Shown: positions 216 to 19,747, numbered from the stretch's first letter. The stretch: 24,937 bases of DNA from a virus (IMGVR_UViG_3300027969_000403:1-24937); one strand, 5' to 3'. A program made the numbers and translations. Notes: generated by a model not told the origin, from the letters alone.

Positions 216-3200
216 ATGCCCACCTTACAAGAAGTTCTTGTTGACCCTAACTATGTCAATGCAAACTTTGCTACTAAACAAGCTATTTTCAATAAGTATG
301 CGCCGCAGGATCCGAACTACGCTAATGCGAATGACGCGACCAAAGCAGCCATTCATCAAAAGTACGGCTTAGAAACGCCGGCTGTTCAAGTAGTAGAAAA
401 ACCCACTGCGCCTACTGCGCCTACTGCGCCCTCTGAGCCCGACACGGAAGGGTCTAGCGACTTTGTACGTGGCATTCGTAATTATCTGCCGGGCCTACAA
501 GAAACATACGGTGGAGCAAAAGTCTTTGCTGGTCTTGCTGCTAAAAAGCTAGGTGCAACAGACACTGCTAAATCTCTGATTGAAGGCGGCATCGAGACTA
601 TGGATGTCGGGCAGAGTAAGCAAGTCACCCGCGATACTGACTCGTTTACAAACGCATGGGAAAAAGGCATTGGCAGCGTAGTCACTGATTGGCTCCCGTA
701 CCAAATGGGTGCTGGCGTAGCTAACATCGCTGAGACTCTTGCAATGATGGGTATTGGCGCTGGTGTTGGCGCAGTTACTGGTGCTGGTGTTGGCGCGTTG
801 CCCGGCGCGGTGGCGGGGGCTGTGTCCAAGACTTTGTTAAAACAAGGCGTTAAAGAGATAGCGGAAAAAGTTGCCAAAGAACAAGGCGAAGAGGCCGCGC
901 AAAGATACGTTCAGGCTGAGGCTAAAAAAGCTATTGTGCGTATGGGTTCTACCGCTGGTATGGTAGGTCAAGCAGGCTTGCATGGCACGGGTGAAGTTAC
1001 GGGGCGTGCGGTGGAAGAAGCTAAGCGGCGCGGTGAGCGCCCAGAAGACATTGAGATGTCTCGCGTTTTGCCTGCGGCGGTTGCGCATGGCGTTGCGGAT
1101 TTCTTTATCAACAAGATCGGTCTTGACTCTCTTAAGATCGGTGAGACTGGCACAAAGTATCTAGCTGCTGATATTGCTAAGCGAATTGGTGTAACTGGTC
1201 TCAAAGAAATACCAGCCGAAGAAATCCAAACAATGGCAGAGCGCTACGGCGCTAAGTTGTCATTGACTGACGCTGAAGCTGTTAAAGAATATGTAGACAC
1301 AGCAGCGGCTGCATTCGGTATGTCCGTTGTGCCGGGCGGTATTGGTGGTGCGCGTACACACCTGTCCAATAAATTCTCTAATCTAGCTAAGCAAGAACAA
1401 GAGCAGGGGCAAGAGCAAGAAAAAGCTACTACTGGAACTGCGACTAAACAATTCGATACGCTCACTGAATTGGTCGATCCTGAGCTAAAAGAAGTGCTAA
1501 ATCTGGATACAAAATACTTTAAGCCAATACCACCAATAACACCCCTAACCGACACCGCTGCACAAGGAGAGCAAAATGTTGCAGGAACTAACCAACCCCC
1601 AGTTGGAACAAGCACTAGCGTGGCTGAACAGCCCAACACAAACGCCGCCCCCACCCCCTCTGAGGAAGCTCAACTCGATGGAGTGGTATCTACTGGAGAG
1701 ACTACTGGACAACCTCCTGTCGGAGAAGGACAACAGCCCAGTGCATTAGAAAACTTACAACCCAGCCCATTTAAGCTGACTCGCGGGGAGGTTACACCGG
1801 AAGCAGTTAGCAAACTATCTGATGAACAACTAAGAGCTGAACTCAACAATATCTACCTCAACGATCCCGAGAATGCGCTCGTACAAGCAGAATTAACCAA
1901 ACGTCAACAAGGAACCCCAAGTGGCACTACGACCCCTAAAGCCGTCCAAGCAGAAACGCAAGGACAAAAAGCAGCAGCAAAACCAGCAGCCCCAGCAGCA
2001 AAGCCAGCAGGCCCAATAACCCCTAAGAAAATTTCTGATCTTTCTCCTGAACTACAGGAGGAAGTTGCGCGGCGTCGAGACCAGATCGCAGAGATTGAGT
2101 CGGATGGCGGCGATGCATCCAAACAGAAAAAATTCCTTAATGCGTTTTTGGCTAATCAGGGTATTACAGGCACACTGCCTGCGCGTCGTGAGACCAAGAG
2201 CATCGAGAAAGATTTCTTGGAAGAAGGCGAACTGCCATACGCAGTGGCTGGCAAAGAAAAGTCTGATTCAGCGCAAGAGATAGAGCGCGTTCAGGCGTAC
2301 AAGGAATCATTGACTGACGAGAAGGGCAAGCCTAGAGTTATCCCTGATTATGAAATTAGCAATGAGGATCAACGTCTTTACAACGAGGTTCGTGACGAAG
2401 TAAACACGGAAACCAAAGCCGCTAACGAGCGCCGTTTGAAGTTGGTTGCTGAGCGCGATGCGGCGAACAAAGAACTCAAAGCTGCCCAAAACGCGTTTGA
2501 TGAAGCCACTGATGAACAGGAAACTCCTGCATACACACGCTTAGAAGCTGCGCTTAAACGCTTTAACCAAGCTGAGAAAGCACTGGAAGCACACGGTGAA
2601 GAGCGCCTTGAGCTACCTGAGTACAGCAAGAAATTTGCTGCTGACTATAAAGACGTTTACTTCGGAAACATTACTGCTGGGGTTGATCTTGACCCAAAAA
2701 CCAACAAGATGAAGATGGCGTTTGCGAGTGGCAAGAACGAGCACCGCAAAGCTGCCAAAGCGTTACAGGCATACATGCGGGAAATGCGCGGACGTGACAA
2801 GGAGCAGATGTCTCCCCAAGAACGTCGAATTGCCAATGCGTATAACGAAATGCGCGTTTCTTACAGCAAGATTTTTCCTGTCAGCTTTCCCCGCTGGCAA
2901 GACCTAACAGCCGAACAAAAAGACGTATTCAGAAGTAATATAGTAAGCCTTGCTGGCGCGCAACAAGATGTTGCATTTGCTTTTCTCGGTAAGAAACTTG
3001 TTGAAGACAGTAAGCTAAGCGAAGGCGAGAAACGCGAAAAACAAAACGTTATTGATCGCCAAAACGAAGTGCGCAGCAAGTCTGAAGCGCAACAAGAAAA
3101 AGACCGTAAAACGCGTGAAAGCTATGAGCGTAATAAACCATCTTATAGCTCCTTGCCTAATAATGTTGTCAAGATGGTGTCCGAGGGAAATCTGCAAGGT

Positions 3201-6200
3201 GTCTTGCAGCACATGCGTAGCATCCCAACAACCGCGCTAACCAATCCTTACAAACGGATTATGAAAGCTGTAGCTCAGTCTCTATTTGAGATGAAGCTTA
3301 ATACCAAGATAAAAATTGTTGATTCTTCAGAGATTGACGGTGACTTGGCGCAATATAAACCTGAAAACGACACTATCTATGTGTCTAAGGAAGGACTCAG
3401 CAGCAACACACTGCTGCACGAAATTATCCATGCAGGTACGGTCAAAGTCATTAATGAGTATCTGAACGGAAACAAAAAGTCGTTAAGCGCTGAGCAGCTT
3501 AGAGGCGTGCAGCAGCTTGAGCGCATCATGAATGACACTCGTGAGACTCTCGGAGAAGACCACCCAGAGGCGTACAAAAATTTGTTTGAATTCGTGGCAT
3601 ACGCGCTGACTAGCGACCAACTGCAACAAGACTTGCATGACGAGCAGGCTATCAGTAGTGTGGTGGGGGCAATGAATAAGCTTCCTACTAAAGAGGGGTA
3701 TGCAACCACGGAAGAAGAAAACATTGGGACAATCCTCCCCGAAGAAAAGTCTCAGTGGTCAGCTTTCAAATTGGCTATTGCGCGAATACTTAAAGTGCGT
3801 GATGTCTACTTGCGTAAAAGCGGAGTGGCGAACAAAAACATCGAGGCCAACTATGTAATGGAGATTGCAGCAGCGTTTGAAGACATGCTTGCAAAACCTA
3901 CACAGCCCATTTATTTACCGGCACTGCCAACAAAGAAAGCACCGAAAAAAGCGGAGACCGCTTCACGGGATGTTAATAGTCTTGATGAGGATGATAAATC
4001 CTATGATCCTAAAGAGGATCAAATGCCTAAAGGGTGGAAATACTGGAAGCGAAAACTTCTCACAGTTGATGGCTGGCAAGAAATTGCACGGGACTTCCAG
4101 AATGACCGCTACCACATTAAAGAGTGGGAACGTGCGTTAGATCTAGCTGGGGAGATTTACCGTGAGGGTCAGGACAAGATTAACAATATCTACGAACAGA
4201 TTGTTCGGTCTACTGGCATTGCTAGGAATCACTTTAACCGATCCATTGCCGATCCTTCTATGGAGTTAAACCTTGCTGTTGGTGATTTTGCCAAAGCTTT
4301 AGGTATAAAAACTGACCAAGCGCTCAACAAGTTGCATCGTGTTTTAGAAGCGCTTCATGAACCTGAAAGGCGCATGATTAAATTTATCCTGAATGTGCCA
4401 CTGAGCACGAGCAATACTTTGAGTGGCGGTACTACCAACCCTGCTGCTGCTAGGGCACAAATTGTCAAGCTTCTTGACGCTAAGAAGATGACCAAAGCAC
4501 AAGCAAAAGATCTACGCGCTAAGCTTGATGCAATCATATTTAAGCAGGATAAGAACGGAAATATCATCTACAAAGACGGCGCGCCACAGCTTTCTAAAAA
4601 TGTTGACCCACTAGGTAGTAGCCCCGCAGGGCACACAGGTGCGCAAAGCATCGACTTTAGAAATGAGTCTCTGTATTCAGCAACAGGTATGTCACCTGAC
4701 TCTGTAAAATCTATTACAGCCGCATACGAAAAACACCCAAACAAAAAAGAAATTGACCGAGTCCTAGCAGCGATTAAAACCTTAACTGATCGCACTGCTG
4801 ACCTTAACCGTCTGTCAAACTACTGGTCGTTCCCAGTAGACAACCGTGTGAACTTTTACGGTTGGGACTATTACGTTCCCCTCAAAGGTACTTCCCGTGA
4901 CGGCGACTCACAGCTTGACTTTAGCAAGATGGGTAGCGGTAAAAATGGGCGAGAGTTCCAAGATGCGCCTGCGTCTATGGAAGGCCGGTATAGCGTATCT
5001 ACTAACCCTGTGCTGCAAGTTATGTCTGACGCTACACGCTCTGCAATGCGTGCCGGGCTAAAGGACGTTACCCAGTCAGTTAAAAATGCCATAGACCAAA
5101 AACTTATACCGGGCAAGCCCTCACGGAAAATTACATTTGAAGAGCGCAAAGATATAGACCCCGCTGAGTTCAAAGGCGAGACAACTCTATTCCACTACAA
5201 CGAAGACGGCAGCATTGATGTGCTTCAGATCAGTGACCCAAAATTGCTGAACTCAGTTCGCCGCACGTTTAAAAAGGCCACGCCTCTCACTGACATTGCC
5301 AACACTATAACCAGCACTATTGGCAAGATGCACACTCGCTACAACTATCAGTTTGCTCCAATGAACTTTGTGCGCGATATGTTGACCAATGCGTTTACTA
5401 TCGGCGCTGAACTAGGGCCAGCAAAAGCAGCGAGATTTCTTGGCGATGTAGCCACAATGGTTGTTGCTAAAAACGGGCTGTACAAAGCCATGCAGGTTGC
5501 TATTCTTTACGAGAAGGGCGATGCTAAAAGCCAAGGAGCGCTGCGTCAGCTAGCGAAGACCGACCCATATCTTTCCTCAATGGTTGAATTCATTGAAGAG
5601 GGTGGCATGGTGTCGTACTTGCAAGGTATGTCTATCAAGTCCAACTTCCAAGAACTGCACAAGGATATTGGGCGTTCAGGCATCATGCATAAGAAAGAGC
5701 AGCTAGAGAAGTTTATTGACACATGGACTGACATGTTTGAGATTGCCAGCCGTGCCGCTGCGTACAAGATAGCTAAAGAAACTGCTCTGTCAAAAGGCGA
5801 GTCAGAGAAAGCAGCTAAGGTACGGGCGTCTGCTTACGCTAAAAACTTAGCTAACTTTGAACAAGTCGGTGAGTATGGCAAGGCGCTGGGTGCTGCATAT
5901 ATGTTCTTCCGTCCCGCTGCGACAGGCGCAGTACGTGCGATTGAGGCTGTAGTTCCAGCTTTCCCCGGCTCACTAGATCGCGCTATGGAGCGTCTGTCTC
6001 CTAGCTTGAGTGACAAGGCTAGGGAAACTTTCAAGAAGAACTATAAAGAGAAAACCGACAACTCTCGCATAATGCTTGCGTCTCTCACGGGTCTTGGCGT
6101 AATTGCTTACATGATGGCGTTGATGATGTCTGATGATGACGACCTCGGACGTAATGCAGTAGCTACAGATAACATGCAGCAATGGACACGCTTTGCGCGT

Positions 6201-7130
6201 TTCCACATACCAAAGGCTATTACCGAATCAATGGGTATTAAAGAGCCAGTAGTGTTCCAGCTACCGTGGGGCTTCGGTCTTGGCGCGTTCATGGCATCGG
6301 GCGCACAGATAGCGGCTTATGGTGCAGGTAAGCAATCGTTTGGCGACATGGCGGCGAACATATTTACACAGATTTCGCTGGATTCTTTTATCCCGATTCC
6401 GGTTTCCCGCATGCCCCCCGGGGAAATGCCACTAGAGTTTGTCTTGGACTCAGTTGCGCCAAGCGCGGCGCGTCCTATTCTTGAGTTCGCGTTGAATAAG
6501 AATGGTCTTGGTCAAAAGATTTACAACGACCAGAACCGTAAGTTCGGTGATGCGTACACAGGCGGGGACAAAATTCCTCAGATATACAAAGACGCAGCCG
6601 TATATCTTGCAGACACGTCTATTGGTTCTTTCTTCGGCGAAGTTGATGTAAGCCCCAACACGCTGTACTTCTTGTCGAATAGCTACATTGATGGTATTGC
6701 AAGGGTTGCTGACGGGATGTACGGGATTGTTGACACCACTGACAGTCGGCCCCCGTTTAACCCTAAGACTGATTTGCCTTTACTCGGTTCTTTCTTTGGC
6801 GCGCGGTCTAACGTGGACTCACGTGAGTTTTCTAAAGTTGAAAATCAGATCAAAGCCATAGAACGGCAGATCAAGATGTACGACACTAAGCCGGAAAGAG
6901 CAGTTGAGTACGATGAAGCACACCCAATGAACCGCCCAGCCGTTGAGTTGTACAACAAGATGGTCAACGGTGAACTTAGAAACTTACGCCAAGAAGCCAA
7001 CACAATCCGTCGGGATCAAACAATACCTGCTGACGTAAAACGTGAACTTATTACTGTGCTGACCCTACAGCAAAACATAGTAAAGCGGCAGATGATTGAT
7101 ATATTTGACGCATACGAGATCAAGCCCTAA
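216..7130 (+). CDS. Giant (2304 aa) virion/ejection-type polyvalent protein with zincin-like HExxH motif
   Basis: Seen in order: two tandem 19-residue repeats (residues about 10-28 and 32-50, pattern DPNYxNANxATKxAI..KY); a TAP-repeat linker; a Gly/Ala-rich, helix-prone region (about 150-380) with hydrophobic stretches; a disordered Pro/Gln/Thr-rich linker (about 395-620); a charged coiled coil (about 725-830); an HExxH motif (HEIIH, 1068-1072) with a possible third zinc ligand Glu1125 in FEFVAYALT; a long helical region; NFVRDMLTNAF near 1717 and YMFFRPAATGA near 1895; and a hydrophobic segment near 1951-1972 followed by DDDD. The C-terminal third resembles domains seen in phage 'large polyvalent proteins' (LPD38-like, from memory). 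Inference: an internal virion or ejected protein carrying a peptidase-like domain. There is no Shine-Dalgarno sequence; translation is probably coupled to the upstream gene, whose stop is 3 bases away. No lysozyme or transglycosylase motif was recognised. Confidence 0.85.
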   Translation: MPTLQEVLVDPNYVNANFATKQAIFNKYAPQDPNYANANDATKAAIHQKYGLETPAVQVVEKPTAPTAPTAPSEPDTEGSSDFVRGIRNYLPGLQETYGGAKVFAGLAAKKLGATDTAKSLIEGGIETMDVGQSKQVTRDTDSFTNAWEKGIGSVVTDWLPYQMGAGVANIAETLAMMGIGAGVGAVTGAGVGALPGAVAGAVSKTLLKQGVKEIAEKVAKEQGEEAAQRYVQAEAKKAIVRMGSTAGMVGQAGLHGTGEVTGRAVEEAKRRGERPEDIEMSRVLPAAVAHGVADFFINKIGLDSLKIGETGTKYLAADIAKRIGVTGLKEIPAEEIQTMAERYGAKLSLTDAEAVKEYVDTAAAAFGMSVVPGGIGGARTHLSNKFSNLAKQEQEQGQEQEKATTGTATKQFDTLTELVDPELKEVLNLDTKYFKPIPPITPLTDTAAQGEQNVAGTNQPPVGTSTSVAEQPNTNAAPTPSEEAQLDGVVSTGETTGQPPVGEGQQPSALENLQPSPFKLTRGEVTPEAVSKLSDEQLRAELNNIYLNDPENALVQAELTKRQQGTPSGTTTPKAVQAETQGQKAAAKPAAPAAKPAGPITPKKISDLSPELQEEVARRRDQIAEIESDGGDASKQKKFLNAFLANQGITGTLPARRETKSIEKDFLEEGELPYAVAGKEKSDSAQEIERVQAYKESLTDEKGKPRVIPDYEISNEDQRLYNEVRDEVNTETKAANERRLKLVAERDAANKELKAAQNAFDEATDEQETPAYTRLEAALKRFNQAEKALEAHGEERLELPEYSKKFAADYKDVYFGNITAGVDLDPKTNKMKMAFASGKNEHRKAAKALQAYMREMRGRDKEQMSPQERRIANAYNEMRVSYSKIFPVSFPRWQDLTAEQKDVFRSNIVSLAGAQQDVAFAFLGKKLVEDSKLSEGEKREKQNVIDRQNEVRSKSEAQQEKDRKTRESYERNKPSYSSLPNNVVKMVSEGNLQGVLQHMRSIPTTALTNPYKRIMKAVAQSLFEMKLNTKIKIVDSSEIDGDLAQYKPENDTIYVSKEGLSSNTLLHEIIHAGTVKVINEYLNGNKKSLSAEQLRGVQQLERIMNDTRETLGEDHPEAYKNLFEFVAYALTSDQLQQDLHDEQAISSVVGAMNKLPTKEGYATTEEENIGTILPEEKSQWSAFKLAIARILKVRDVYLRKSGVANKNIEANYVMEIAAAFEDMLAKPTQPIYLPALPTKKAPKKAETASRDVNSLDEDDKSYDPKEDQMPKGWKYWKRKLLTVDGWQEIARDFQNDRYHIKEWERALDLAGEIYREGQDKINNIYEQIVRSTGIARNHFNRSIADPSMELNLAVGDFAKALGIKTDQALNKLHRVLEALHEPERRMIKFILNVPLSTSNTLSGGTTNPAAARAQIVKLLDAKKMTKAQAKDLRAKLDAIIFKQDKNGNIIYKDGAPQLSKNVDPLGSSPAGHTGAQSIDFRNESLYSATGMSPDSVKSITAAYEKHPNKKEIDRVLAAIKTLTDRTADLNRLSNYWSFPVDNRVNFYGWDYYVPLKGTSRDGDSQLDFSKMGSGKNGREFQDAPASMEGRYSVSTNPVLQVMSDATRSAMRAGLKDVTQSVKNAIDQKLIPGKPSRKITFEERKDIDPAEFKGETTLFHYNEDGSIDVLQISDPKLLNSVRRTFKKATPLTDIANTITSTIGKMHTRYNYQFAPMNFVRDMLTNAFTIGAELGPAKAARFLGDVATMVVAKNGLYKAMQVAILYEKGDAKSQGALRQLAKTDPYLSSMVEFIEEGGMVSYLQGMSIKSNFQELHKDIGRSGIMHKKEQLEKFIDTWTDMFEIASRAAAYKIAKETALSKGESEKAAKVRASAYAKNLANFEQVGEYGKALGAAYMFFRPAATGAVRAIEAVVPAFPGSLDRAMERLSPSLSDKARETFKKNYKEKTDNSRIMLASLTGLGVIAYMMALMMSDDDDLGRNAVATDNMQQWTRFARFHIPKAITESMGIKEPVVFQLPWGFGLGAFMASGAQIAAYGAGKQSFGDMAANIFTQISLDSFIPIPVSRMPPGEMPLEFVLDSVAPSAARPILEFALNKNGLGQKIYNDQNRKFGDAYTGGDKIPQIYKDAAVYLADTSIGSFFGEVDVSPNTLYFLSNSYIDGIARVADGMYGIVDTTDSRPPFNPKTDLPLLGSFFGARSNVDSREFSKVENQIKAIERQIKMYDTKPERAVEYDEAHPMNRPAVELYNKMVNGELRNLRQEANTIRRDQTIPADVKRELITVLTLQQNIVKRQMIDIFDAYEIKP
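414..430 (+). repeat. Short 9-base tandem repeat encoding the TAP linker
   Basis: An ACTGCGCCT unit is repeated almost three times and encodes the TAPTAPTAP linker between the N-terminal tandem repeats and the Gly/Ala-rich region of the giant protein. It is in frame, so length changes here would leave the reading frame intact. It is probably a flexible hinge. Confidence 0.7.
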
Positions 7131-13876: not shown

Positions 13877-14057
13877 GGTTGTTTTCCTTCATAAGCTTGA
13901 TTGAGTTAAGTGTCATCTTAGCCTCAGTCATTGTTACCAAGATTTTCTCTATCGCTTTGTCATGGTCGTTGCCAAGCATGTGGATGTGGGCTTCTTTCAG
14001 TGCTTTCTCAGCCATCATCATCGGGTATGCGTAATCAATATAAGCGCCTTGCTTCAT
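13860..14057 (-). CDS. Small helical protein of unknown function
   Basis: 65 residues from ATG at 14057, which fits the Shine-Dalgarno AAGGA (14064-14068) with 6 bases spacing and gives a TGATG junction with the nuclease stop. The ATG one codon earlier (14060) gives an ATGA overlap and is equally possible. The longer frame from 14105 lacks a ribosome site. The protein starts KQGAYIDYAYPMMMAEKALKEAHIHMLG and continues as amphipathic helices (AIEKILVTMTEAKMTLNSI). No known motif. It was probably co-translated with the upstream nuclease. Confidence 0.75.
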   Translation of the reverse strand: MKQGAYIDYAYPMMMAEKALKEAHIHMLGNDHDKAIEKILVTMTEAKMTLNSIKLMKENNHAVRK

Positions 14058-14735: not shown

Positions 14736-14885
14736 TTATTCTAACTCTTCTTTTGGGTCTCGTGCAACTTTTTTTGGTGCAGGGGGCAATCTAAATTCCC
14801 AAAAACCTACTCTGTCGTACCAGCGTTCCCATGAGAAGTGAATCTCTCGCGTCTTTATGTTGATGTATTTCCACAGGGGTCGCAT
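14736..14885 (-). CDS. Small aromatic-rich protein (49 aa) coupled to the DNA polymerase
   Basis: A 49-residue frame, under the usual length cutoff for automatic calling. It starts at ATG 14885 overlapping the polymerase stop as TAATG, and ends at TAA 14736. The peptide begins MRPLWKYINIKTREIHFSW and continues with WYDRVGFWEFRLPPAPKK before a charged tail. It has four tryptophans in 49 residues. The one-base stop/start overlap, the composition unlike a random frame, and the neat fit between polymerase and nuclease genes support it. I do not recognise the family. It could be a small partner of the polymerase. Confidence 0.75.
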   Translation of the reverse strand: MRPLWKYINIKTREIHFSWERWYDRVGFWEFRLPPAPKKVARDPKEELE

Positions 14886-16774
14886 TAGCAATCACCGTAG
14901 CTTCGCCCGACATTGGCTTCGCATGCCACGGGTAAAGATTCACACCAATCAGGGGGCACAGACATGCACTCGACGATATATGCAAGGGCTTCCTCTTGCT
15001 CAGCTTCAGGAACCACAACCACCGCCGCATCGTGCACAGTCAGCTTCACAGGGTAGCGCTTCTTAATCTTCAGCATCTGCTGCCCGACTACGATCCGCGC
15101 CAAGGCTTGAACTACGTTTTCAACTAGCGATCCACCCCACAAAGACACTGGCCCTTTGCGGCTTTTGTAGACGTACTTAGTCGTGGCTTCGGACGTGTCC
15201 TTCCCTAGATCAGGATAGCGAATCATCAACCCATTAGGCAGCCGAATGCCACTCTTATAAACTTTCAAACAATGATTCTTACCATAGTAGTACGGCTTGT
15301 GTGGGTTACCCTGCTTATCTTTAGGCCACACTGCTAGGTCATCAATCACTTTGTCGCCTTCACGCCAAAGTTTAATAACCATGTCGTTCTTATCGCGGTA
15401 CACGCCCACGATACGCTTAGCTTCCTCATCATCAATGACAGCCCCGGGCGGCGTAGTCTTTAGCGTGTGCTGAAGTTTTAACGCGCCAGTCCCATACCCA
15501 AGCCCGAGAATGCAGGTCTTACCCACAAAACGTTCAGTAGGATTTGCTTTGCTGACAGGTCGGTTATATACCTCAGATGCAAAGATAGAGTAAACATCCT
15601 CTCCGTTGCGAAACTGCTCAACGACATCTTCTTGCCCAGCTAACCATACAAGGATACGCGCCTCAATCTGAGAGGAGTCACAGTTGATAACTACATGACC
15701 CTCGGGAGCAACTACTGCGTTCTTTAAGGCTTTCTTTTTCTTGTCCCTTGATGGCAAGTTTTGGAAGTTAACCTTGTCTGACCCTGCCCACCTACCAGTG
15801 TGGGCACCATAGTATTTAAGAGGTATTGGCAAACGGCCCTCATTACGCATACCAATGTCGATGAATCTCTCAATCCTCGATTCCTCAATGGTTGATTTCG
15901 TGCCAAGACGAACCGCGCATAGCTGCTGAATAAATGTGTCTTCCATCTCAGTGAGCGCCAAAAATCCCTCGTCATTCTTCGCCAAAGCATAGGTTTCCTT
16001 TCCTGTCGTGCCGCTAACTTTCATCGGGGGCGTGATGCCATGCTCCAGCAAGATTGCTGCGAACTGTTTATTGCTAGATAGCTTCTTGCGTACAGCTTCT
16101 TCTGTATCGCATTTGAGTTTCTCCATTAAGCCCGTGAGAAGCTCGCTTTTCTCCGCCTGCATATCAGCAAGCCTTTCTTGCAACAAGGCATCGTCAACCT
16201 CAAAGACAGGCTCAGTAAACATGCGTAGGGTCATGTCTATAAGCTCTAACTCTTCTTCGGGAAACTCACCCGCTAACTCTCTGAATAGCCTGAACGTAAG
16301 GTCTACGTCATTCTTGCAATACTCACCGTACTGCGCCAAGTCGGCGGGGGTGAAGTCTTTACGGCTCTTACCTTCAGCGGCAATAACCTCATCGCCCTTC
16401 TTGCCAAGCACGTACCGATCAGCTAGCTTAGATAACGACCCGCCAGCGTCTACGCCGTGAAGCGCCCTCGCCATACTAAGAGTATCTAGCAGGAAGATTG
16501 GCTTGATACCAAAGTGCCAGCTAAGAATACAACCGTCGAACAATGTGTTATGACAGAGTAGTGCAGATTGGTCCCAATCGAATGTGTTGAGATAGCTAGA
16601 GATTTCCTCATGCGAACCTGAGAACCATTCTTCTGGGGCGTCGTCAACCTTCACACCAACGCCTATGACTTCAAAACGTGAGTCTCTTACGTACTCTTCT
16701 GTAGTCTGATACTTAAACCCTAGCTTAAGTTTGTTGTCGTAAAATGTTTCAAAGTCTAATGTAATTAAATTCAT
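14885..16774 (-). CDS. polA-like: Family A DNA polymerase with 3'-5' exonuclease
   Basis: 629 residues, T7/Pol I type. Exonuclease motifs: DFETF (Asp7, Glu9), NTLFD (Asp80), and EYCKNDVD (Tyr152, Asp156). Polymerase motifs: A is NCDSSQIEAR (catalytic Asp366); B is RFVGKTCILGLGYG (Arg415, Lys419, Tyr427); C is VHDAAVV (His581, Asp582). By motif B spacing the residue equivalent to E. coli Phe762 is Leu423. Motif C has Ala583 where Pol I has Glu883. No 5' nuclease domain is present. Its ATG overlaps the stop of a 34-residue membrane protein as ATGA. It replicates phage DNA with the primase-helicase encoded downstream. Confidence 0.96.
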   Translation of the reverse strand: MNLITLDFETFYDNKLKLGFKYQTTEEYVRDSRFEVIGVGVKVDDAPEEWFSGSHEEISSYLNTFDWDQSALLCHNTLFDGCILSWHFGIKPIFLLDTLSMARALHGVDAGGSLSKLADRYVLGKKGDEVIAAEGKSRKDFTPADLAQYGEYCKNDVDLTFRLFRELAGEFPEEELELIDMTLRMFTEPVFEVDDALLQERLADMQAEKSELLTGLMEKLKCDTEEAVRKKLSSNKQFAAILLEHGITPPMKVSGTTGKETYALAKNDEGFLALTEMEDTFIQQLCAVRLGTKSTIEESRIERFIDIGMRNEGRLPIPLKYYGAHTGRWAGSDKVNFQNLPSRDKKKKALKNAVVAPEGHVVINCDSSQIEARILVWLAGQEDVVEQFRNGEDVYSIFASEVYNRPVSKANPTERFVGKTCILGLGYGTGALKLQHTLKTTPPGAVIDDEEAKRIVGVYRDKNDMVIKLWREGDKVIDDLAVWPKDKQGNPHKPYYYGKNHCLKVYKSGIRLPNGLMIRYPDLGKDTSEATTKYVYKSRKGPVSLWGGSLVENVVQALARIVVGQQMLKIKKRYPVKLTVHDAAVVVVPEAEQEEALAYIVECMSVPPDWCESLPVACEANVGRSYGDC

Positions 16775-16875
16775 ATATCTGATTTGTCTTCACCTATAAA
16801 AATCCGAATGGTGATGTATACAGACAGCACTAAGCTCGCGCCGCCAAGTGCTAGTAGTAAAAAGATTTCAAGCAT
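16771..16875 (-). CDS. 34-residue single-span membrane protein
   Basis: A tiny protein: MLEIF, then a hydrophobic helix of about 22 residues (LLLALGGASLVLSVYITIRI) and a charged GEDKSDI end. ATG at 16875 is preferred over an upstream ATG at 16959 because it has GGGAGAAG at ideal spacing; that site is written into the last codons (LREKN) of the upstream gene. Its stop overlaps the polymerase start as ATGA. Phages often carry such small inner-membrane proteins next to replication or lysis genes. Function unknown. Confidence 0.7.
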   Translation of the reverse strand: MLEIFLLLALGGASLVLSVYITIRIFIGEDKSDI

Positions 16876-17257
16876 GATTCTTCTCCCGCAACTTAGCTTC
16901 GATCTCCCTAATGCACTGCATCTGATAGGGTGACAAGTCACCGTCCCAGCACTCCTCAATCTCTTTGTCTGTCAGCCTTACCCATGTGCGCTGGGGTGGA
17001 GTAACTGGAACATTTACTGGCATACCTAAACAACCAATATTCCCGATCTTATGTGGCGGGTGGGCATAAAGAGGCGTCCAACCCAAATCCCTTGGATGAT
17101 CATCAGTCATCGTTATCTCATACCCAACCTCGGGACATATCGCTTCACCCCATTCAGGCTCAAGCCAAGCCACAGGCTTGACCTGATTTGTTTCTGATTG
17201 CATAGCTAGGACATCGTGGATTTGTCTGAGCAACCCGCAGATTTCGTCTTTAGTCAT
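16868..17257 (-). CDS. Small modular phage protein, C-terminal W..LT..EI...LREKN module
   Basis: 129 residues in two parts. Residues about 1-75 carry PVAWLEPEWG and GWTPLYAHPP, short modules I recall in small phage proteins. The C-terminal part is WVRLTDKEIEE... IREIEAKLREKNHA, which shares its pattern with three neighbouring genes (see findings). ATG at 17257 overlaps the previous stop as ATGA and has AAGGGGA upstream. Its last codons contain the Shine-Dalgarno for the membrane-protein gene. Nothing indicates an enzyme. Confidence 0.75.
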   Translation of the reverse strand: MTKDEICGLLRQIHDVLAMQSETNQVKPVAWLEPEWGEAICPEVGYEITMTDDHPRDLGWTPLYAHPPHKIGNIGCLGMPVNVPVTPPQRTWVRLTDKEIEECWDGDLSPYQMQCIREIEAKLREKNHA

Positions 17258-17481
17258 GTTTGTCCCCTTGCTCGGATGTTACGGGCGCACTCTTCAGCCA
17301 AGTTGTATGGCGTGCCGTCATCGGTTTCTTCACACACCCTTGCACACGCCTCACGCTCTTTAGCCGCTACCAGTTTGGCAAATGCTTCAAAGGCTTGGTA
17401 TTTTGGATAACCAATGTATTTTGGATAGCCAATGACAATGCCACATTGTCTAGCCATCTCAATGATTTCATCTTGTGTCAT
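17254..17481 (-). CDS. Small phage protein (MTQDEII...EREACARVCE...RARGQ type)
   Basis: A 75-residue protein: MTQDEIIEMARQCG, then a duplicated hexapeptide IGYPKY-IGYPKY, then FAKLVAAKEREACARVCEE and IRARGQT at the end. The MT.DEII.MAR ... EREACA.VCE ... RARGQ layout is one I recall in small phage proteins of unknown function. The hexapeptide duplication reflects an 18-bp tandem repeat (17398-17433). It overlaps both neighbours by 4 bases, and the ARGQ codons supply the next Shine-Dalgarno. Confidence 0.75.
   Translation of the reverse strand: MTQDEIIEMARQCGIVIGYPKYIGYPKYQAFEAFAKLVAAKEREACARVCEETDDGTPYNLAEECARNIRARGQT
17398..17433. repeat. 18-bp tandem direct repeat within a small gene
   Basis: Two adjacent copies, 17398-17415 and 17416-17433, differ at one base and encode the tandem IGYPKY hexapeptides. 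The in-frame length and high identity suggest a recent slippage duplication. Confidence 0.85.
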
Positions 17482-17723
17482 GTGTTCAGCTCCCGCAACT
17501 TAGATTCAATGTTCTGTATCCCTGCAATGAAGTTGCCTTTCGTTAAAGTCTTTGCAAGCTCTGTTATTTCATCAGCGGTTAGCCCTGACCAAGGACGCGC
17601 CCTTTCCGCTCTTAGTGCGGCTTTCTTCAGCGCTTTGTTCTCTGCCACAAGTTCGTTAATCTGATTAAGAACATCCTTCAGCATTTCAGAAGTCTCATGC
17701 AGTGCCTTCATTGCTTCAGTCAT
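17478..17723 (-). CDS. Coiled-coil protein with C-terminal LREKN-type module
   Basis: 81 residues. The first 45 form an amphipathic coiled coil (MLKDVLNQINELVAENKALKKAALRAE), then the shared C-terminal module WSGLTADEITELAK...NIESKLRELNT. ATG at 17723 overlaps the previous stop (ATGA); the GGTGGTGA in the last codons of the previous gene is a likely ribosome site. The coil suggests self-association. Function unknown. Confidence 0.72.
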   Translation of the reverse strand: MTEAMKALHETSEMLKDVLNQINELVAENKALKKAALRAERARPWSGLTADEITELAKTLTKGNFIAGIQNIESKLRELNT

Positions 17724-18052
17724 GCTTCACCACCCTGCTTTGGCTTGCAAGCATCATTGAAACCCTCGGCATAGCCCATTGCATATTCTGCGGGTGTATT
17801 CTTCTCCCGCAGTCGCTCTTGCGCCGCCGCCACTAGGTCAAACGGCGCGTCTTTCTTGTCGAGCATCAAAGACATGCTCTCTTCTTCAGTCAGGTCTTTC
17901 CATCCGCTTTTAGATGCATACGACAAAGCATGTTGCAGTACGTCCTTGGCATGGCACAGCGCTTCTGTGGACTCGCTCAACTGCATAGGGGTAGTTGCGT
18001 CAAGCTCTAGCTTGATGGCTTCAATGGCAAATTTAATAGCTTCGATAATCAT
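17720..18052 (-). CDS. Small helical protein with LREKN-type module and GYAEGFNDACKP tail
   Basis: 110 residues: an N-terminal helix (IIEAIKFAIEAIKLELDATT), a middle with ALCHAKDVLQHALSYA, then WKDLTEEESMSL ... AAAQERLREKNT, and an extra C-terminal YAMGYAEGFNDACKPKQGG. It overlaps the preceding gene by 4 bases (ATGA). This is one of four neighbouring genes sharing the same C-terminal pattern; here that pattern is internal, with a tail added. Confidence 0.72.
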   Translation of the reverse strand: MIIEAIKFAIEAIKLELDATTPMQLSESTEALCHAKDVLQHALSYASKSGWKDLTEEESMSLMLDKKDAPFDLVAAAQERLREKNTPAEYAMGYAEGFNDACKPKQGGEA

Positions 18053-18213
18053 GATGTTTGTTCTTCCTCTAGTTCGCGTTCTATACGATCAATAGCTGCT
18101 TGCATAGTTTCAAGGCGTTTGATGGCTTCAACTACTTCCTGCTTCTCTTTGACAGACAAGGTTCGTGACGTTCGTAAACCATTTAAAGCGTTTAAGATGG
18201 ACTCGATACTCAT
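18049..18213 (-). CDS. Small coiled-coil protein (54 aa)
   Basis: 54 residues from ATG at 18213: SIESILNALNGLRTSRTLSV then KEKQEVVEAIKRLETM and an acidic end (ERELEEEQTS). The later ATG is chosen over one at 18246 because AGGAGA sits 4 bases upstream of it, and the added residues from the earlier start look unlike a protein N-terminus. The sequence is nearly all helix, with heptad-like spacing. Function unknown. It overlaps the next gene by 4 bases. Confidence 0.7.
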   Translation of the reverse strand: MSIESILNALNGLRTSRTLSVKEKQEVVEAIKRLETMQAAIDRIERELEEEQTS

Positions 18214-18217
18214 AATA

Positions 18218-18223
18218 TCTCCT
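18218..18223 (-). promoter_or_regulatory. Ribosome-binding site deciding the start at 18213
   Basis: AGGAGA on the minus strand with 4 bases before ATG 18213; the alternative ATG at 18246 has no such site. Confidence 0.75.
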
Positions 18224-18261
18224 AAAAAATCCATCATAAAGCCCACCTGTTACGCTTCTAG

Positions 18262-18510
18262 CTAGCTATTCCTTCTTCTCAATTCGTTCTCGATTGCTCG
18301 AGCAAATGTCAAGTAGACATTACCGTTCGTTTGCTTGCGTACATCTTCTAGGATGTCCGAAATGTCTTTCTCTCTAAGCCCTTCCCACGGCCCTTTGCTG
18401 GTAGCTGTACTAGGCTTGACTTGGGTATAAAGTTTCTTACATTTGCTACATGCCCATTCCGATGTGCGGTTAGCGCTCACATCTGTCCAAAGATGGTCAT
18501 CACATGTCAC
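18262..18510 (-). CDS. Small CxxC protein with LREKN-type C-terminal module, GTG start
   Basis: 82 residues from GTG at 18510. The N-terminal part has Cys3, His6 and CSKC (WACSKCKKLY), a possible small zinc knuckle, followed by a linker and the shared module WEGLREKDISDI...FARAIENELRRRNS. The GTG is chosen because GAGGAGGAG ends 7 bases upstream, while upstream ATGs lack a site and add residues of unlikely composition. It overlaps the previous gene by 11 bases. Confidence 0.72.
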   Translation of the reverse strand: MTCDDHLWTDVSANRTSEWACSKCKKLYTQVKPSTATSKGPWEGLREKDISDILEDVRKQTNGNVYLTFARAIENELRRRNS

Positions 18511-18664
18511 TGTCTTGCTCCTCCTCAACTTTATTAGCAAGGGCATCGCGGAGCGCACTAATAGCGTTGTCCACAAAACCCTCATCGAATGACGGGAGCT
18601 TGTTAAACTCCCGCACAACCTCTAGCGCCTTAAGCGCTAGTTCGGCAGCTTCTTTCAGCTTCAC
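18500..18664 (-). CDS. Small helical phage protein (54 aa), GTG start
   Basis: A 54-residue frame below usual calling length: GTG at 18664 overlaps the previous stop as GTGA, ending TGA at 18500. Sequence starts KLKEAAELALKALEVVREFN, then LPSFDEGFVDNAISALRDAL and an acidic tail. The ALKALE...ALRDALA style is common in small phage proteins. There is no ribosome site, so translation probably depends on coupling. It contains the GAGGAGGAG site for the next gene. Confidence 0.7.
   Translation of the reverse strand: MKLKEAAELALKALEVVREFNKLPSFDEGFVDNAISALRDALANKVEEEQDSDM
18518..18526 (-). promoter_or_regulatory. Strong ribosome-binding site for the GTG start at 18510
   Basis: GAGGAGGAG on the minus strand, ending 7 bases before GTG 18510. 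It lies inside the coding sequence of the upstream 54-residue gene (codons for VEEEQ). Confidence 0.75.
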
Positions 18665-18834
18665 GCGCGTTCGGACAGAATCCGCTCGGGGTCGCGCTTT
18701 GGCTCAGGAGCTTTCTCAGCCTTCTCGGGCTTAGCTTCTTGCTGTACCTTGACCTCAGCCGCTTTCTTTTCATCAGCCTCGATGCGTTTGATTGGCTCTA
18801 CTGGTGGTTTGTGACTTACTGATTCAATTCTCAT
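18661..18834 (-). CDS. Small Lys/Glu/Pro-rich disordered protein (57 aa)
   Basis: 57 residues: MRIESVSHKPPVEPIKRIEA, then a charged low-complexity stretch (VKVQQEAKPEKAEKAPEPK) and DPERILSERA. ATG at 18834 has GAGG 7 bases upstream. Its stop overlaps the next GTG as GTGA. It is probably disordered in solution; no function is inferred. The neat overlaps on both sides support coding. Confidence 0.7.
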   Translation of the reverse strand: MRIESVSHKPPVEPIKRIEADEKKAAEVKVQQEAKPEKAEKAPEPKRDPERILSERA

Positions 18835-18997
18835 TTAAAACCTCATTTAGTAAAAGTTCAATTGCCTTTAGTTCCTCTGCTGTCCGGCGCATTTGGATGG
18901 GGTTGCCCCTGCCTTTTGCCGCCGCCTCAAGCACACTAGCTGCTTCGGCAATAACTTCAGCCGTGTGCCTCAAGTTCTGTATGGTTTGTTCATTCAT
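18824..18997 (-). CDS. Small helical protein (57 aa)
   Basis: 57 residues: MNEQTIQNLRHTAEVIAEAA, SVLEAAAKGRGNPIQMRR, then TAEELKAIELLLNEVL. Two predicted helices. ATG at 18997 overlaps the previous stop as ATGA; the end overlaps the next start by 11 bases and contains that gene's GAGG. It is shorter than many callers' limits but the frame is clear. Family not recognised. Confidence 0.7.
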   Translation of the reverse strand: MNEQTIQNLRHTAEVIAEAASVLEAAAKGRGNPIQMRRTAEELKAIELLLNEVLNEN

Positions 18998-19258: not shown

Positions 19259-19747
19259 TTATTTAGAGAGGTTTTCAATCTCGCGGTTGAGATACCACTG
19301 CGCTTTCTTCAAGTTCTCTAAACGATCACCTTTGTGGTCGGCGCGAGTGATGTACTTCACTACATTGCCCAAGTGATAGTTAAGATTCTTTGCCTCGATA
19401 AAATCAATAGTCTCAATACCACCTGTCTTGTAGTGGGTTGGGTGATTGATAGCATCCGCATTTACCGCGACAGTTTCAATAGCTTGTACCCTAGCCATCC
19501 TAGCCTTGGGTTTTGCCAACGCTTCATCGCGGCGATTGACAAACTGCTTCCTTGCTTGCGACATCAAGTTGTATGCGTAAGGCTTTGATACCTTAAACTT
19601 TTTCATGATGTCCCTTACCGTAACACCAACGCTGTTAGCCATTGTGTTAGCTACTTCTACTACTTTACTCATCTGCCTTTTCCTTTTTAGTTCGGCGTTA
19701 AAAAACGATCTCAACCCCATGCTGAAACCGTGGACTTTCACTGTCAT
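19259..19747 (-). CDS. HTH-DUF3310 protein, possible nucleotide kinase-related
   Basis: 162 residues. Residues about 40-66 look like a helix-turn-helix (VTVRDIMKKFKVSKPYAYNL). The C-terminal INHPTHYKTGGIETIDFIEA and NLKKAQWYLNREI (100-157) are the DUF3310 domain; T7 gp1.7, a nucleotide kinase, carries this domain. ATG at 19747 overlaps the VRR-NUC stop (ATGA) and has AAGGAGA in place. A second ATG at 19672 also has AAGGAAAAGG upstream and would remove the first 25 residues, so a shorter form is possible. A role in nucleotide metabolism is inferred from the family only. Confidence 0.85.
   Translation of the reverse strand: MTVKVHGFSMGLRSFFNAELKRKRQMSKVVEVANTMANSVGVTVRDIMKKFKVSKPYAYNLMSQARKQFVNRRDEALAKPKARMARVQAIETVAVNADAINHPTHYKTGGIETIDFIEAKNLNYHLGNVVKYITRADHKGDRLENLKKAQWYLNREIENLSK

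Follow-up and report, generated by a model that had tools for sequence, protein, structure and literature searches.

The window, meaning the whole stretch of DNA that was analysed, is an entire IMG/VR virus record of 24,937 bases. Its DNA between positions 14000 and 22000 gave no match to known phages. Four small ORFs (P0001 to P0004), singled out in a preliminary description, were all located on the minus strand at the coordinates reported there. P0005 and an ORF of 34 codons, absent from that description, belong to the same chain of genes, which starts at position 18213 and leads through the MSIES gene, P0003, P0002, P0005, P0001 and the 34-codon ORF into polA, with six consecutive overlaps of 4, 4, 4, 4, 8 and 4 nt. 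The anti-Shine-Dalgarno duplex energies at the joints of the window range from -5.8 to -11.0 kcal/mol. For the CGGGAG preceding the 34-codon ORF the value is -7.4 kcal/mol (5th percentile of the window, -7.2), and for that in P0002 it is -7.9. The 34-codon ORF is also present behind a different gene in G004 and behind a similar module in L010. P0004, which has relatives in L101 and L103, ends in LRRRNS-stop without an overlapping start. The coordinates of these features are listed in Table 1. Elsewhere in the window, a gene of 2304 codons (216-7130, plus strand) takes up more than a quarter of the record and faces the minus-strand genes. Upstream of the small-gene cluster, and on the same strand, lies a DUF3310 protein (19259-19747; Pfam E 5e-21, PHROG 'nucleotide kinase').

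Table 1. Features of the small-gene chain and its surroundings in the window.
Feature	Coordinates	Strand	Remarks
polA-like DNA polymerase	14885..16774	-	chain end; identity from sequence features; 4-nt overlap with the 34-codon ORF
34-codon ORF, one hydrophobic stretch (MLEIFLLLALGG...)	16771..16875	-	overlaps the P0001 end by 8 nt and polA by 4 nt
P0001: N part (residues 1-28), PVAW..PLYAHPP middle and C-module	16868..17257	-	pieces separate in L002-L018
C-module of P0001, RTWVRLTDKEIEECWDGDLSPYQMQCIREIEAKLREKN	16877..16990	-	window-free profile E 4.1e-16
CGGGAG, putative Shine-Dalgarno of the 34-codon ORF, read as R-E of LREKN	16883..16888	-	7 nt before ATG 16875
P0005, EREACA...IRARGQT gene	17254..17481	-	4-nt overlap with each neighbour
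GCAAGGGGACAAACATGA, end of P0005	17271-17254	-	
P0002: predicted coiled coil and C-module (17484-17597)	17478..17723	-	E 1.2e-7
CGGGAG in P0002	17490-17495	-	8 nt before ATG 17481
P0003: helical N part, C-module (17798-17902) and YAMGYAEGFNDACKP module (17720-17797)	17720..18052	-	E 3.8e-4
relic CGGGAG in P0003	17804-17809	-	
MSIESIL... gene	18049..18213	-	chain head; AGGAG before ATG; 4-nt overlap with P0003
P0004: CxxC N part and C-module (18268-18390)	18262..18510	-	GTG start; E 6.8e-5

A profile was built from 109 modules of other phage loci, with the window and L001 excluded; its seed rule, as read, also bars close homologues of P0002 to P0004. This window-free profile picked exactly four ORFs of the window, in the order P0001, P0002, P0004 and P0003 (E-values in Table 1). 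The weakest real match scored 18.1 bits. Among 60,600 shuffled ORFs of the window the top score was 10.3 bits, and the best reversed natural ORF reached 7.3 bits. The C-terminal layout that the preliminary description had seen in the four neighbouring genes is thus borne out by this profile, which connects all four C-termini above the shuffles, that of P0003 being not significant after masking of the L[KR]xxN box. With this box masked, the scores are 43.7 bits for P0001, 14.1 for P0004, 9.8 for P0002 and 4.1 for P0003, with shuffles reaching up to 9.5. Much of the four-way likeness therefore sits in the last residues; by the front half alone, P0001 is firm, P0004 is supported, P0002 is borderline and P0003 is not proven. 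The last box reads LRRRN in P0004 and LRELN in P0002, and in P0003 the module is internal, with 25 residues following it. The membership of P0003 rests largely on what would be a disguised ribosome site. Scores from a second-iteration profile were set aside and not counted as evidence, because that profile contains the four genes or their homologues.

The module comprises 40 residues, with W-x-G-L-T-[DE]-x-E-I, a variable loop and F-A-R-A-I-E-A-K-L. We identified 391 modules among the 21,435 distinct ORFs of the fetched loci, 376 of them C-terminal. AlphaFold2 gave a pLDDT of 91.5 for the P0001 module with 53 relatives and placed helices at residues 8-14 and 21-39. For full-length P0003 with three homologues the pLDDT of 49 was too low for use; helices at 56-64 and 71-84 match the module. 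No hit above the curated cut-offs of Pfam, NCBIfam or PHROGs was obtained for the four proteins, the module alignment matched no family in Pfam or PHROGs, and Foldseek found no relative at E <0.001 in PDB and BFVD with a query of just 40 residues, too short for a firm verdict. A weak match to a calmodulin-like profile (E 0.03), short of statistical support, was rejected as general helix-loop-helix likeness: the LTDEEI...FxxxxxxKL pattern is held in common with the EF-hand, but the loop is variable in length and sequence and carries no conserved 12-residue acidic calcium loop. Trp3 and Leu6 are nearly invariant. The codons of Leu6 and Thr7 vary silently, which indicates that the front half of the module is kept for its protein sequence. 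The W-x-G-L-T-x-x-E-I...AIEAKL unit is thus a real, unnamed helix-loop-helix module of aquatic-phage proteins, and it may be a small fold with a binding role. In front of it stand, among others, hydrophobic helices, CxxC pairs, a helix-turn-helix-like part and PVAW..PLY parts; 366 N-terminal parts grouped into 84 clusters, of which one is large. The helix-turn-helix-like part (LNQLEFANLIGVQRSTISTWEHGRQPPR) is joined to the module in L015 (3751-4239).

The usual ending of the module is CTN AAG GAG AAG AAC ACA TGA, with AAGGAG, a spacer of 7-8 nt and an ATG that overlaps the stop. The codons of L[KR]EKN differ from those in the rest of the same genes (GAG 114/125 vs 38%, Fisher p 1e-33; AAG 104/108 vs 41%, p 7e-33), as do those of the tail Thr (ACA 64/70 vs 36%, p 5e-21); the loci were gathered largely via the motif itself and are mutually related, so that pairs are not independent and these p-values, like those below, are guides. 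Where Arg stands in for Lys in the tail, CGG is used in 15 of 17 cases and the GGAG core is kept, with the adjoining Leu codon free. Diversity at the third codon position is 0.69 for Leu36 and drops to 0.14 for Lys37. The ratio of amino-acid to synonymous change is 2.2 at Lys37 and 3.3 at Thr41, against 0.02 at Leu6 and 0.25 at Thr7. The anti-Shine-Dalgarno energy is -7.0 kcal/mol as observed and -4.1 kcal/mol after synonymous resampling (Wilcoxon p 9e-16). Moreover, a start that opens an ORF of at least 30 codons lies 7, 8 or 11 nt past GAG in 278/310 modules. This start is ATG in 258 of them and GTG or TTG in 10 each, at unchanged distance from GAG. The residues that follow Asn (T, I, V, S, HG, HA, NG, NA) would thus be largely dictated by the needed position of the next start. 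L-R/K-E-K-N-(T) is probably in the main a Shine-Dalgarno sequence with the start of the next gene, rather than a protein motif.

Codon bias alone was dropped as proof of the ribosome-site reading, as synonymous codon choice is uneven in the front of the module (GLTDE) and in AIEAK as well; part of the bias reflects recent shared ancestry or recombination. The argument is carried instead by the start geometry, the modules with no start behind them and the proteins without a module. One could go further and attribute the uniform tail codons to inertia only, in one recently spread cassette with no ribosome-binding function, and both the skew at GLTDE and AIEAK and the near-identical pieces common to several loci would agree with this. 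We regard this as highly improbable: the adjacent Leu and Lys codons vary freely while Arg variants keep GG, GTG and TTG replace ATG at the same spacing, the alternative tails HG, NG, HA and NA recreate an ATG 7 nt away, the codons differ where no start follows, and the string is retained outside coding sequence in three loci (L076, L028 and L097).

The ribosome-site reading is backed by the modules that lack a following start. Of the modules with a start, 250/278 have intact Shine-Dalgarno codons, vs 15/32 of those without (p 4e-8). Exceptions occur in both directions, since under the stricter definition 15/265 modules with these codons have no nearby start and 28/278 modules with a start do not have the exact codons. 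Several of the modules scored as having no start carry an ATG four bases past the core. When the loosest definition is used, which admits these and shorter ORFs, the codons are intact in 258/293 vs 6/16 (p 7e-6), and in 205/237 vs 5/11 among representatives below 80% identity (p 0.002). In a pattern-only search, AAGGAG was found in 49/55 module genes ending KEKNT-TGA vs 6/12 ending KEKNT-TAA/TAG (p 0.005). Several of the TAA/TAG genes with AAGGAG have a TAATG overlap instead, and those of L115, L120 and L136, without AAGGAG, have a separate purine-rich site further downstream. KEKNT is spelled AAA-GAA-AAA-AAC-ACT in L041 and L086, with no gene behind. In L076 the stop is shifted and AAGGAGAAGAACACATG is retained outside the coding sequence, as the joint string also is in L028 and L097. 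Among 84 ORFs with KEKN-like ends and no module (44 of them without any sign of W-GLT), the Shine-Dalgarno codons are present in 66, and a start then follows in 61/66. In addition, the GenBank annotation of phage DSL-LC04 independently puts a gene start in the 4-nt overlap at such a joint. In L239 an ORF of 12 codons (MSNTSKLKEKNT) ends in the joint, just upstream of a AAGGAGAAGAACACATG site, and resembles a leader peptide whose sole content is the ribosome site.

These data bear on the proposal, made in the preliminary description, that the whole W..LT..EI...LREKN unit is a single docking or adapter domain for a common partner. The shared C-terminal module stands, and its near-invariant W3 and L6 and silent codon variation at Leu6 and Thr7 speak for protein-level selection on the front half; the diversity of the N-terminal parts would also suit an adapter. 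LREKN, on the other hand, seems to serve mainly as the ribosome site and start of the next gene: it is constrained at synonymous sites, tracks the downstream start and is found on unrelated proteins. P0003 is no longer recognised once the box is masked, and the Foldseek search of PDB and BFVD returned no fold relative. A docking function for the unit as a whole is therefore improbable in our judgement.

Shuffling of parts between phages was confirmed at the DNA level. The first 28 residues of P0001 (MTKDEICGLLRQIHDVLAMQSETNQVKP) are encoded by DNA that is 92-96% identical in L002, L003, L007, L014-L016 and L018. L002 keeps the middle of P0001 as well, and the other carriers of the N part continue differently. 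The middle part (PVAWLEPEWGE..PLYAHPP) is found at the end of a short gene in L011 and at the beginning of another in L005. In L004, L006, L009, L010 and L012 the C-module follows unrelated starts, with an identity of 84-94%. The same N part as in P0001 is fused with an EREACA-type module in L015. The suggestion that unrelated N-terminal parts had been shuffled onto a shared C-terminal module thus proved correct, with N, middle and C pieces recombined in other phages. Two C-modules stand in tandem in one ORF of L003 (677-1093); the seam between them, AGGAGTAAGAACGCATGG, resembles a former ribosome site with its start that is now read through in frame.

We compared 659 joints between loci. Of the pairs of loci that agreed on one side with an identity of 85% or more, 84 were unrelated on the other side and 15 had the same sequence there. 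In the control-matched set, 69/79 pairs (0.87) were swapped at the joint vs 0.24-0.56 at sites shifted by 90-240 nt (p 9e-10 at +90, p 3e-5 at -120). The clearest single case is G004 (L293). Its helicase and polymerase are 65-68% identical to those of the window over the main alignments, its small-gene cluster is 86-93% identical (window 16808-18836), and polA lies on the opposite side of the cluster. G004 has exactly one extra gene, of 62 codons (MRYEQ...FKEKNT), between the P0001-type module and the 34-codon ORF. This gene has the joint CGGGAGTTGAACACATGA before it and AAGGAGAAGAACACATGA after it, where the window goes straight from CGGGAGAAGAATC to ATG. P0003 looks like a healed joint: its versions in L006 and L103 stop at REKNA*, and those of the window and L101 read on past the relic CGGGAG into the YAMGYAEGFNDACKP part, known from other proteins. 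The mobile part Y-A-M-G-Y-A-E-G-F-N-D-[AG]-C-K-P is C-terminal in P0003 and occurs also in L105, L106, L107, L108 and L110, where it can be internal in long mosaic proteins such as the 354-residue ORF of L105.

The concentration of exchange breakpoints at the joint, and the fact that G004 and the window differ there by precisely one gene, might be expected if the 18-20 nt of the joint were a dedicated recombination site for an integrase, nuclease or transposase, and its match to the ribosome secondary. The joint, however, tolerates CGGGAG, AAGGAG, GAGGAG and CCGGAG with differing spacers, which fits ribosome binding and not a specific site, and other joints such as AAGGGGACAAGCATGA are in use too, so that we hold a dedicated site to be very unlikely. 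The explanation we favour, with a probability of roughly 0.85, is that these genes are translationally coupled single-gene cassettes of an aquatic tailed phage, chained into polA. It is built on the module and its recurrence after unrelated parts, on the geometry of the start codons, on the nucleotide-level constraint on the tail and on the exchange breakpoints at the joint. Each cassette would be one short, exchangeable gene, many of them ending in the 40-residue module, and the last codons of the module (L-[KR]-E-K-N-T-stop) would double as AAGGAG or CGGGAG, a spacer of 7-8 nt and the next ATG (rarely GTG or TTG). As the start overlaps the stop behind a Shine-Dalgarno sequence, a ribosome finishing one gene would be placed to start the next, and the downstream gene would then be translated by coupling. 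As the same short joint is present in many phages, genes or gene parts could be exchanged without loss of the next start signal, and the repeated joint is presumably what recombination uses. For a further step the odds seem even: that the joint is a natural standard connector, offering short homology for ordinary phage recombination by which single genes or half-genes are inserted, lost or swapped and the next start is kept, and that this, and not protein function, gives unrelated proteins the same end (LKEKNT, IRARGQA). The second of these endings, IRARGQA or IRARGQT (GCAAGGGGACAAGCATGA), encodes the putative Shine-Dalgarno sequence AAGGGG with an overlapping ATG, and the fetched loci have 78 examples among their ATGA overlaps. 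P0005 ends in this way, with GCAAGGGGACAAACATGA (Table 1) as a different motif to the same effect.

Several known systems resemble parts of this arrangement. It is established that genes can be coupled by termination-reinitiation through ATGA overlaps with an intragenic Shine-Dalgarno motif (Huber et al. 2019, PMC6728339). The genes described here are likewise co-directed, with overlapping stop and start and a Shine-Dalgarno sequence within the 3' end of the upstream gene. In the pairs of that study, the upstream 3' ends belong to ordinary unrelated genes, whereas here hundreds of modules, and unrelated proteins as well, carry one tail, the C-terminal peptide is shared and the joints are exchange points. 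The nearest parallel at the nucleotide level is the Start Associated Sequences of cluster K mycobacteriophages, a repeated AGGAG-containing sequence before many small non-structural genes of different families (PMC3203893). These are 13 bp long (GGGATAGGAGCCC) and lie a few bases upstream of starts, whereas the joint described here is part of the coding sequence of the upstream gene, overlaps its stop and comes together with a protein module. By eye, its consensus AAGGAGAAGAACACATGA, inside coding sequence, does not follow the published one. In phage domain mosaicism the same fragment is present in otherwise unrelated proteins through ongoing DNA-level shuffling (Smug et al. 2023, PMC10684548). 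The emphasis there is on tail fibres, endolysins and replication proteins with domains already known, and the authors anticipate that proteins of unknown function hold much mosaicism still to be seen. Our case has the same fragment in unrelated proteins and breakpoints at the DNA level; it differs in that the module is absent from Pfam and PHROGs and that the breakpoint coincides with the ribosome-binding site. In the open-access literature, to which the search was confined, we found no earlier account of a promiscuous module in which the terminal motif is at once the ribosome site of the following gene and the boundary a point of exchange.

What looks like a conserved 'protein motif' at a C-terminus can thus be the imprint of a nucleotide signal of the neighbouring gene, and such imprints can mislead domain annotation as well as claims of homology among small phage proteins. 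A standard joint that carries the next ribosome site is, in addition, a testable answer to the question of how phages keep small accessory genes interchangeable: in lake-virus genomes, genes would be exchangeable one at a time with the next start signal kept. The helix-loop-helix module is common in aquatic phages, and hardly any copies turned up in the searched bacterial genomes and cultured phages. A motif scan of viral contigs gave at least 600 matches. With a slightly longer motif, 62 stretches, two of them confirmed, were found among 84,980 prokaryote species (one genome each), and among 201 genomes of a host-like family the motif was present only in the seed genome. Finally, two metagenome-assembled genomes that carry the module suggest a betaproteobacterial host.
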